Below are positions 573 through 20,171 of a stretch of DNA of 35,512 bases, piece by piece. The DNA comes from an uncultured Clostridia bacterium (GTDB lineage Bacteria > Bacillota > Clostridia > Oscillospirales > Acutalibacteraceae): assembly GCA_947624865.1 (NCBI GenBank), contig CANQMH010000010.1:1-35512 (forward strand). The letters run 5' to 3'. Below the pieces are notes generated by a model that searched no databases, had not been told where the DNA came from, and worked only from the letters and a program-made list of their open reading frames with translations. A program made the translations under genes and the position numbers. Numbering within the stretch: position 1 is the first letter of the stretch; each line of letters begins with the position of its first letter.

Positions 573-669
573 AAAAAAGCCGACCTAATCTGAGCTATTC
601 GCCCAGACGGTCGGCAATCATCTGTTATACTCCATGTGGTTAAATCCACTGTTCCGTCAGTCATATAAC
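573..669 (-). promoter_or_regulatory. ZTP (ZMP) riboswitch, pfl motif, upstream of pflB
   Basis: Read on the minus strand, the element opens with GTTATA pairing with a later TATAAC (P1), encloses a GTGG/CCAC hairpin (P2), and then carries a GCCGACC/GGTCGGC hairpin (P3) whose 5' side contains CCGTCTGGGC. The internal CTGACGG can pair with CCGTC to form the pseudoknot typical of the pfl/ZTP motif. The P3 hairpin is followed by a T-rich tract (TTTTTTATTT), so it doubles as an intrinsic terminator. Known behaviour of the class: binding of Z nucleotides, which accumulate when 10-formyl-THF is short, stabilises the pseudoknot and allows read-through. Here that would turn on formate production, a one-carbon source. 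The class is recognised from its conserved motifs; no covariance-model search was run. Confidence 0.88.
579..615 (-). terminator. Intrinsic terminator overlapping riboswitch P3
   Basis: A 7-bp GCCGACC/GGTCGGC stem is followed on the minus strand by TTTTTTATTT. It is the expression platform of the ZTP riboswitch, between the promoter and pflB. Confidence 0.8.
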
Positions 670-675
670 ATCTTT

Positions 676-18300: not shown

Positions 18301-18340
18301 AAAAGACAGGTTTTATGGTAAATCTGTCTTTTCTTTTTTT
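18301..18340 (+). terminator. Intrinsic terminator after aroK
   Basis: A 9-bp stem (AAAAGACAG/CTGTCTTTT) followed by CTTTTTTT. Confidence 0.88.
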
Positions 18341-18459: not shown

Positions 18460-18972
18460 ATGAATAATACTGAAAATAAAAGAAGCAGAGTCATTATAAT
18501 TTCACTAATTGCGGTAATTGTAATTCTTTTATGTGCAGGCACAGCAGCAGGATTTATATTATTAAGCAATAATCCGCAGGAAGGTAAAACTGCAAAAGGG
18601 GTTGTATTTGACAGTAATGCATCTCATTATGATGCAACAGTAGAAAATGACAGCAATAACAACAGCGGAATTAAAGTTCCCGGCTATGATGATATTGTGT
18701 TTTCATCAAACAGCACAGATTTCCCCATAACACTTCTGAACCCCGAGGGCAATCCTTGTAATTTTCAATTTAAATTATCACTGAAAGAAACAGGTAAACA
18801 GCTGTGTTCTACAGGTCTTGTTAAACCGGGTGACGCTATCAAAGGAGTAAAGCTCCAAAACACAATACCCAAAGGCACTTACACTCTTGTCATAAACATA
18901 TCCACGTCCTCTCTTGACAGCGCCGCTAATATGAACGGTGCACAGGTTCAGACAACACTTACGGTTAAATAA
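18460..18972 (+). CDS. Membrane-anchored extracellular protein, function unknown
   Basis: A 170-residue protein with a short basic N-terminus, one transmembrane helix at about residues 11-35 (IIISLIAVIVILL) and an outside domain of about 135 residues that looks all-beta. The domain has a conserved-looking opening, GIKVPGYDDIVFSSNS, then NPEGNPCNFQFKLSL, TGLVKPGDAIKGVKL and IPKGTYTLVINIST. I recall similar single-pass proteins in many Clostridia, often beside secreted proteins like the next gene, but know of no assigned function. A strong AAAGGAG precedes the ATG. It is the first gene of a three-gene group in the same direction. Confidence 0.85.
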   Translation: MNNTENKRSRVIIISLIAVIVILLCAGTAAGFILLSNNPQEGKTAKGVVFDSNASHYDATVENDSNNNSGIKVPGYDDIVFSSNSTDFPITLLNPEGNPCNFQFKLSLKETGKQLCSTGLVKPGDAIKGVKLQNTIPKGTYTLVINISTSSLDSAANMNGAQVQTTLTVK

Positions 18973-18985
18973 TTAATACAATAAT

Positions 18986-18997
18986 CCCCTAACGGGG
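18986..18997 (+). other. Short GC hairpin between surface genes 1 and 2
   Basis: CCCC-TAAC-GGGG, extended by two A-T pairs across one mismatch, in otherwise AT-rich DNA. No T-tract follows, so it may be an mRNA processing or stabilising element rather than a terminator. Confidence 0.45.
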
Positions 18998-19042
18998 TTT
19001 ATATAAAATACATATAAAAATAATTTTAAGGAGAATTAAGTA

Positions 19043-19609
19043 ATGAAAAACTTAGGCAAAAAATTAGGAACAGCAATGCTTGCCATTGCAATGTGCGCTT
19101 GCGCAACAACATCTGCTTTTGCAGCTTCAACAACAGATACACCTGTTGTTGATGAAAATAACACGTCAGCTAACTTCCAGCAAAAGATTACGTACACAAA
19201 AGATGCTTCGGAAATTGTTCCGGCATACACAGTGTCAATTCCTGATACGGTAGCTCTTGCTAAAGATTCTACTACGCTCTCATATTCGCTTGCACTTAAA
19301 AATGATACAGCGTTTATTCCGGAAGGCAAGAAAATCAGCGTAAAAATTCAGAGCGCAGGCTATTCCGGAAATTTGAAAAAGTTTGCAGTATGGGATTCAA
19401 GACATCTTCATGAGGCTGAATATCTTATATATAATTCCGACGCTTCCGCTAATCCCACATATTATGAAATTGGCGATGAAATTGTTTCATGGACCGGTTC
19501 TAACTGGGGAACAATGACAAGGAAAATAAAGCTAAAAGATTATTACAACGTTGGAGCAGGAAATTATAATGGTGTAATCAATTATACGGTATCTCTTGAA
19601 GATAAATAA
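19043..19609 (+). CDS. Secreted beta-sandwich protein, function unknown
   Basis: A 188-residue exported protein. The signal peptide is clear (MKNLGKKLGTAMLAI, ending in SAFAAS). The mature part begins with a Thr/Asp-rich stretch and a single beta-type domain with AYTVSIPDTVAL, a Lys-rich strand (KKISVKIQSAG) and a closing GAGNYNGVINYTVSLE. That ending resembles the last strands of WxL-like and pilus-type surface domains. No sortase motif or anchor is present, so it is released or held by partners. AAGGAG nine bases before the ATG. Both flanking genes encode membrane-anchored surface proteins, suggesting a complex. Confidence 0.85.
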   Translation: MKNLGKKLGTAMLAIAMCACATTSAFAASTTDTPVVDENNTSANFQQKITYTKDASEIVPAYTVSIPDTVALAKDSTTLSYSLALKNDTAFIPEGKKISVKIQSAGYSGNLKKFAVWDSRHLHEAEYLIYNSDASANPTYYEIGDEIVSWTGSNWGTMTRKIKLKDYYNVGAGNYNGVINYTVSLEDK

Positions 19610-19658
19610 TCTTAATCTTCGGTGTAAATTATACCGCTTTCATTAAGGAATGAACGCC

Positions 19659-20036
19659 ATGAAAAAATTAATCGTTGTTATCACTACGGCTCTGAGTGTA
19701 CTGTTAATTTGCTCAATATTTACAGCGTTTGCAGAAAACAGTTTCAGAACAAATGTTGTTTTGACAATTGAAGAAACAACATATATCAGCACAAATACTC
19801 AGGAAGTTACACAAAACAGCACTTTACAGACTTATGTTAGTAAGCCTTTATCTGCAATTGAAAGCACAAATGCGGACAATACTCAATCCTCTGCCGAATT
19901 AAATGTGCAAAGCAGAGATAAGACATTTTTAAGAACAGGAAGCAATATAGCCTTCGCATCAGTTGCAGCTTGTTTTGTAATGGTAATTTCAATCGTAGCT
20001 GTTTTATGGATAACAAAACGAAACAAAAGGAACTAA
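19659..20036 (+). CDS. Surface protein with C-terminal sorting-signal-like anchor
   Basis: A 125-residue protein with an N-terminal signal peptide (MKKLIVVITTALSV, ending near TAFAEN), a Ser/Thr/Asn/Gln-rich middle of about 60 residues that looks extended, and a C-terminal hydrophobic helix with a basic tail (TKRNKRN). FLRTGSN just before the helix resembles an LPXTG sorting signal but lacks the proline, so sortase recognition is uncertain; it could remain a plain membrane protein. AAGGA nine bases before the ATG at 19659 favours it over the track start at 19650. Last gene of the three-gene cluster. Confidence 0.82.
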   Translation: MKKLIVVITTALSVLLICSIFTAFAENSFRTNVVLTIEETTYISTNTQEVTQNSTLQTYVSKPLSAIESTNADNTQSSAELNVQSRDKTFLRTGSNIAFASVAACFVMVISIVAVLWITKRNKRN

Positions 20037-20134: not shown

Positions 20135-20171
20135 ACAAAGCGCCCATGCTTTTTTTGCATGGGCGCTTTGT
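20135..20171. terminator. Strong bidirectional terminator
   Basis: A perfect 15-bp stem (ACAAAGCGCCCATGC and complement) with a seven-T loop between the convergent surface cluster and prdX. A T-run (ATGTTTTTT) follows on the plus strand. Confidence 0.93.

Follow-up and report, generated by a model that had tools for sequence, protein, structure and literature searches.

Pilins of the CfaB, CupE, Caf1, PapE, CsuA/B, FimA, PapH and SafA types assemble by donor-strand exchange, and PapD-type chaperones hold pilin subunits in the periplasm. Donor-strand assembly in a Gram-positive bacterium has been described for the TasA fibres of Bacillus (PMC9674648), with TapA as the strand-complementing helper (PMC10151520). 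In the Csc/WxL clusters of Lactobacillales, CscA-D have been described as a surface complex in which CscD is unusually short (Siezen and colleagues, PMC1534035). In passages on these clusters, a DUF916 strand is predicted to fill a gap in the WxL sandwich in AlphaFold2 complexes (PMC10599100), and the N-terminal strand of WxL is predicted to be loosely attached and possibly to rearrange (PMC9772566); chaperones are mentioned in neither paper, and in the passages found neither assigns the LPxTG protein a role as strand donor or acceptor.

Here, we analysed a three-gene locus in a stretch of 35,512 nucleotides (the window) from contig 10 of the 1.9 Mb genome of an uncultured Clostridia bacterium. 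We consider it fairly probable that this module encodes a surface fibre or complex of minimal composition, assembled by donor strands, in a monoderm Clostridium, and on present evidence it works like both chaperone-usher pili and WxL clusters. Our search of the open-access literature found no prior report of such a system in Clostridia or Firmicutes, nor of one in WxL clusters.

Gene layout and occurrence

The three + strand genes, ORF1, ORF2 and ORF3, span 18460-20036 (Table 1), with gaps of 70 nt between ORF1 and ORF2 and 40 nt between ORF2 and ORF3, and lie between a gene resembling shikimate kinase and one of convergent orientation. The initial annotation had described a cluster bounded by terminators and encoding one N-terminally anchored protein, one secreted beta-sandwich protein and one protein with a sorting-like anchor; the open reading frames and the AlphaFold2 models confirmed the three architectures, and terminator-like hairpins were found on both sides, strong downstream and weaker upstream. 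A scan counted 5 terminator-like sites against 2.7 expected, and promoter-like sites showed no excess over chance in the corresponding scan. None of the three proteins matched a Pfam or NCBIfam family above cut-off.

Table 1. Positions of the module features and of other elements predicted in the window
Feature	Position	Strand	Details
Predicted ZMP/ZTP riboswitch aptamer, elsewhere in the window	594..674	-	61 bits; gathering score 39
Upstream terminator-like hairpin	18301..18332	+	13 bp stem, 3 G-C pairs, A+T-rich, T-run
ORF1, membrane-anchored Ig-like protein, fimbrial-chaperone-like	18460..18972	+	170 aa
ORF1 transmembrane helix, residues 4-35	18469..18564	+	AlphaFold2 model
ORF1 Ig-like domain, residues 79-169	18694..18966	+	AlphaFold2, pLDDT ~86-97 by block
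ORF2, secreted pilin-like subunit	19043..19609	+	188 aa, signal peptide
Candidate N-terminal donor strand of ORF2, residues 42-56	19166..19210	+	No strand in monomer model; alternating hydrophobics in family
ORF2 beta-sandwich, residues 62-187	19226..19603	+	AlphaFold2, block means ~79-97 pLDDT, mostly >90
ORF3, small protein with sorting-signal-like C terminus	19650..20036	+	128 aa, signal peptide
Candidate donor-strand mimic, ORF3 mature N terminus, SFRTNVVLTIEE	19740..19775	+	Family pattern; window's own pair not significant
ORF3 sorting-signal-like end	19926..20033	+	FLRTGS, hydrophobic stretch, KRNKRN
Downstream terminator-like hairpin	20135..20171	+	15 bp stem, T-rich tail

A profile scan for ORF1 over 84,980 species genomes returned 73 loci spread across Clostridia, with hosts including Ruminococcus albus, Anaeromassilibacillus, Eubacterium callanderi, Dorea, Gemmiger and many uncultured lineages. 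The annotation had named the first two protein types as frequent neighbours in Clostridia, and they are: of 60 loci in which ORF1 is followed by 2.5 kb or more of sequence, 52 have a gene of the ORF2 family on the same strand no more than 6 kb away. The annotation had also tied its module to co-occurrence elsewhere, and the survey found all three genes, ORF1, ORF2 and the small sorting-signal protein, next to one another both in Ruminococcus bromii YE282 and in MAGs from the rumen. The nearest named relatives are uncultured Ruminococcus RUG11207 (60% identity in ORF1), RUG11705, RUG11191 and R. bromii YE282, and a Ruminococcus of this group is accordingly the most likely source of the window. 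This joint recurrence in Ruminococcus relatives exceeds chance. Commonly, ORF1 is followed by one or two large proteins, then by one to five genes of the ORF2 family and lastly by an anchored protein whose end is of the sorting type, and 42 of the 52 large proteins of related loci carry an ORF2-like domain at their extreme C terminus. The module of the window is a minimal form without the large adhesin-like partner, and no second ORF2-like domain was found in its genome.

Predicted folds and relation to known systems

In the AlphaFold2 monomer model of ORF2, built with 58 ORF2 sequences, residues 28-60 at the mature N terminus form no strand and stay unpaired, and the C terminus is the last beta strand, with no sorting signal. 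Foldseek searches of the PDB gave a best E-value of 3.4e-5, and the four matches below 1e-3 were CfaB (twice), CupE and Caf1; the next 25 were nearly all PapE, CsuA/B, CS17, FimA, PapH, SafA and their kin. The TM-scores of these searches were 0.3-0.5, and the lengths used for their normalisation took in the unfolded N terminus. With a profile built from mature ORF2 sequences, we found the CS17 major pilin among PDB sequences (E 9e-4, 105 positions), in weak agreement with the fold, and Pfam searches matched the SCPU pilin family in 10 of 57 ORF2 members (best 6e-4) and DUF4402, Fimbrial_CS1 and CssAB in single members with marginal E-values. The full-length ORF2 profile additionally matched antibody chains with bacterial leaders; these matches were driven by the signal peptide and disappeared with mature sequences. 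The model-based comparison suggests that the ORF2 fold has its place with the chaperone-usher pilins.

ORF1 has no obvious cleavable signal at its N terminus, and its top 13 PDB matches by Foldseek are all fimbrial chaperone or pilin entries, headed by FaeE (E 1.7e-3) and continuing with PapD, DraB, Caf1M, SfaE and FimC (E ~2e-3 to 3e-2). Ig-like folds are common and the E-values for ORF1 are just ~2e-3; a Pfam PapD-like match was found in 3 of 33 members of the ORF1 family. Judged from its predicted structure, ORF1 may be a chaperone-like partner of ORF2; the two fold searches were independent and point to two partners of one known machine.

For ORF3, the ATG at 19659 is the likelier start because it has a better-spaced AAGGA ribosome site. 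Its sorting motif, LRTG, is non-canonical with respect to LPXTG, and relatives carry VKTG, VQTG or IKTG. NF053819, the family of very small sortase-dependent proteins EF0750/EF2685, matched ORF3 with an E-value of 2e-5 and 25 bits against a cut-off of 47. Among relatives the N-terminal strand of ORF3 is kept and the remainder of the protein diverges. The genome of the window encodes six sortases; on its contig 35 (L262 7745-12554), proteins ending in LPQTG and LPFTG adjoin a sortase cluster, an ordinary-looking locus separate from the module.

With chaperone-usher pili (CFA/I, CupE, Csu, Caf1), ORF2 shares the pilin-like fold and may share the N-terminal donor strand, its candidate segment being alternating in the family and unpaired in the model; ORF1 takes the position of their Ig-like chaperones (FaeE, PapD), and the large proteins of related loci, with their C-terminal pilin-like domain, recall the two-domain tip adhesins of these pili. 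Unlike the soluble, two-domain PapD-type chaperones, however, ORF1 is membrane-tethered and has one Ig domain, and the module further differs in its sortase-type base protein, its monoderm host and its weak sequence likeness. The outer-membrane usher (PF00577) had no match in the genome, with E. coli as positive control, and the module was not assigned to the chaperone-usher pili, there being neither usher nor soluble two-domain chaperone. The proposed donor-strand assembly is also the point of likeness with TasA/TapA of Bacillus, whose gene neighbours are different; the TasA/camelysin family was not among the ORF2 matches up to E 10, and we know of no sorting-signal base in that system. As in sortase-polymerised pili, a sortase would be expected to act on the base protein, but ORF2 itself has no C-terminal sorting signal and so should not be polymerised covalently by sortase.

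In gene design the module and its relatives correspond gene by gene to the Csc/WxL clusters (CscA-D, comprising DUF916-DUF3324, WxL and small LPxTG proteins), with ORF1, ORF2 and ORF3 as possible counterparts of a membrane Ig-like protein, a small secreted beta protein and a very small sorting-signal protein. A large protein that ends in the domain of the small one, as in Csc/WxL, occurs in related loci and is absent from the window and its genome. The differences are that the membrane anchor is N-terminal in ORF1 and C-terminal in CscA, and that ORF2, unlike the WxL protein, has no long proline-rich linker. The WxL domain (PF13731, with two W-x-L motifs) had no match in the genome or in ORF2 and was not among the listed families of ORF2 relatives. 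In hhalign comparisons, ORF2 reached a probability of 7.6% against the WxL profile, and ORF1 one of 29% against DUF916-DUF3324 over 65 columns, in the DUF3324 part, with no Pfam match to that family. Given the missing WxL domain and these low profile-profile scores, membership in the WxL clusters was not accepted either. Structures of EfmWxLIP1, a DUF916-DUF3324 protein, have been solved (PDB 9i25, 9i1y), and a search of the PDB with the WxL-domain profile matched no solved WxL domain.

The N-terminal strand and a possible assembly

The ORF2 family shares the N-terminal strand consensus T-x-[VI]-x-[YFT]-x-[VI]-x-P-x-Y-T-V-T-I-P. Counting back from the conserved P-x-Y-T-V-T-I-P in 46 aligned ORF2 relatives, hydrophobic residues occupy positions -6, -4 and -2 in 85, 50 and 87% and positions -7, -5, -3 and -1 in at most 24%, and this alternating segment is the part left unpaired in the ORF2 monomer model. 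When operons are compared, the anchored protein starts, after its signal peptide, with a segment similar to the N-terminal strand of the ORF2 encoded alongside it, as in the pairs GNTEVNARIEAAT (ORF2) and NGTEVVAHIDSAT (anchor) of L027, GSTEVTGVV and GSTTVEGVI of L072, and ASQGDVTVQY and ASQGDVTISY of L184. Over 20 operons, with signal-peptide ends assigned by a simple ad hoc rule, cognate anchor/ORF2 pairs scored 25.9 and non-cognate pairs 20.1, with a permutation P of ~2e-5, or ~1e-5 once the closest relatives were dropped. The N-terminal strand was the best-matching ORF2 window in 19 of 35 pairs (3.1 expected). In a control with 13 operons that also encode a large protein, the anchored protein matched ORF2 more closely than the N terminus of that large protein in 10 (P 0.003). 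All these P values overstate the number of events because related operons are not independent. In the module of the window, the pair formed by NFQQKITYTKD in ORF2 and SFRTNVVLTIEE in ORF3 ranked 11 of 20, was not the best window and gave p 0.16 in a further comparison; despite this non-significant likeness, its RTNVVLTIE agrees with the family consensus. A strand-profile test of ORF3 was discarded as unspecific, CscA N termini having scored equally high.

The same mimicry is found in the Csc/WxL clusters, where the small LPxTG and small WxL proteins have alike starts (AYQSNGEVEFYG and VYESNGSIEFVP in L228, SKGQVTFTG and KTGEIEFIP in L237). Over 22 loci, cognate pairs scored 26.6 against 21.6 (P 4e-5), and in 21 of 23 cases the small LPxTG protein matched the N terminus of WxL more closely than that of CscA or CscC (P 4e-4).

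We propose that ORF2 leaves the cell with its beta-sandwich, of the chaperone-usher pilin type, still incomplete. Instead of folding onto its own domain, its N-terminal strand would be available to the groove of the following subunit. The membrane-tethered ORF1, with its single Ig-like domain outside the cell, would hold ORF2 as it leaves the Sec channel and hand it over without an usher, the membrane-wall interface replacing the periplasm; as there is no usher, assembly would be either spontaneous or driven by ORF1. ORF3 would consist of hardly anything beyond a donor strand, a flexible stalk that bears it and a sorting signal; a sortase would link ORF3 to the wall, and its strand would fill the last open groove, fixing the chain to peptidoglycan. 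In related operons, the large protein with the C-terminal ORF2-like domain may serve as tip adhesin, and the module of the window, without it, would form a plain ORF2 chain or display a single subunit. The initial annotation is partly supported: its co-encoded surface module is borne out, and the small fibre or adhesin that it suggested is plausible; the pilin-like ORF2 with its putative donor strand, the chaperone-like ORF1, the putative strand mimic in ORF3 and the link to the large protein go beyond it. More tentatively, and just short of an even call in our judgement, the module may represent an unrecognised usher-free class of donor-strand pili of monoderms, with a tethered chaperone and a sortase-linked base, of which WxL/Csc would be a second branch or an independent copy.

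The four-part gene design, which is the same as in Csc/WxL (PMC1534035), would also suit a wall-bound complex without polymer, in which a single ORF2 sits between the membrane protein ORF1 and the wall protein ORF3 as in the published view of WxL; the predicted entry of the DUF916 strand into the WxL gap in the passages of PMC10599100 is in line with it, as are the one ORF2 and the missing large protein of the window. We nevertheless find this rather unlikely, given that the unpaired ORF2 strand and the pilin-type structural neighbours point to strand exchange between subunits and that two to five consecutive ORF2 genes occur in many operons. The mimicry itself might reflect descent, with ORF3 a decayed ORF2 duplicate in which the signal peptide and first strand survive and whose likeness has no role in assembly, since within operons the two proteins are alike in these parts; but the recurrence of the likeness in sequence-distant WxL clusters (the 21 of 23 cases above) and the preservation of the strand while other parts of ORF3 diverge make such an origin improbable. 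That the three surface proteins act separately and are merely co-transcribed is a reading for which the 70 and 40 nt gaps leave room, as they would allow separate control, yet the linkage of the ORF1 and ORF2 families in 52 of 60 loci from many genera renders it very improbable indeed.

If the donor-strand assembly proposed here is correct, gut Clostridia such as relatives of Ruminococcus bromii would make fimbria-like chains by the strand-swapping principle of E. coli, with need of neither outer membrane nor usher. The very small LPxTG proteins of WxL clusters, for which an explanation has long been missing, would then act as a wall-bound plug completing the last subunit.

Incomplete and altered copies

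Pairs of ORF1 and ORF2 without an anchored protein were observed at L028 34-1451, L032 6353-7768 and L026 5213-6585, in each case behind a small zinc-ribbon-like gene (confirmed as DUF6431 in L028 and L032). Mobile-element genes adjoin these pairs, namely a terminase small subunit in L028 and a resolvase-like gene in L032, and it is possible that the pairs form a mobile cassette; viral contigs scanned with a mobile-element copy of ORF1 contained no relative. In R. bromii YE282 (L021 7646-7903), an in-frame TGA lies within the C-terminal hydrophobic stretch of the small anchored gene, which points to either a broken gene or a sequencing error. Another locus of the same genus (L024 6267-7896) holds ORF2-like pieces and an anchored protein with an ORF1 remnant upstream, and is a module in decay.
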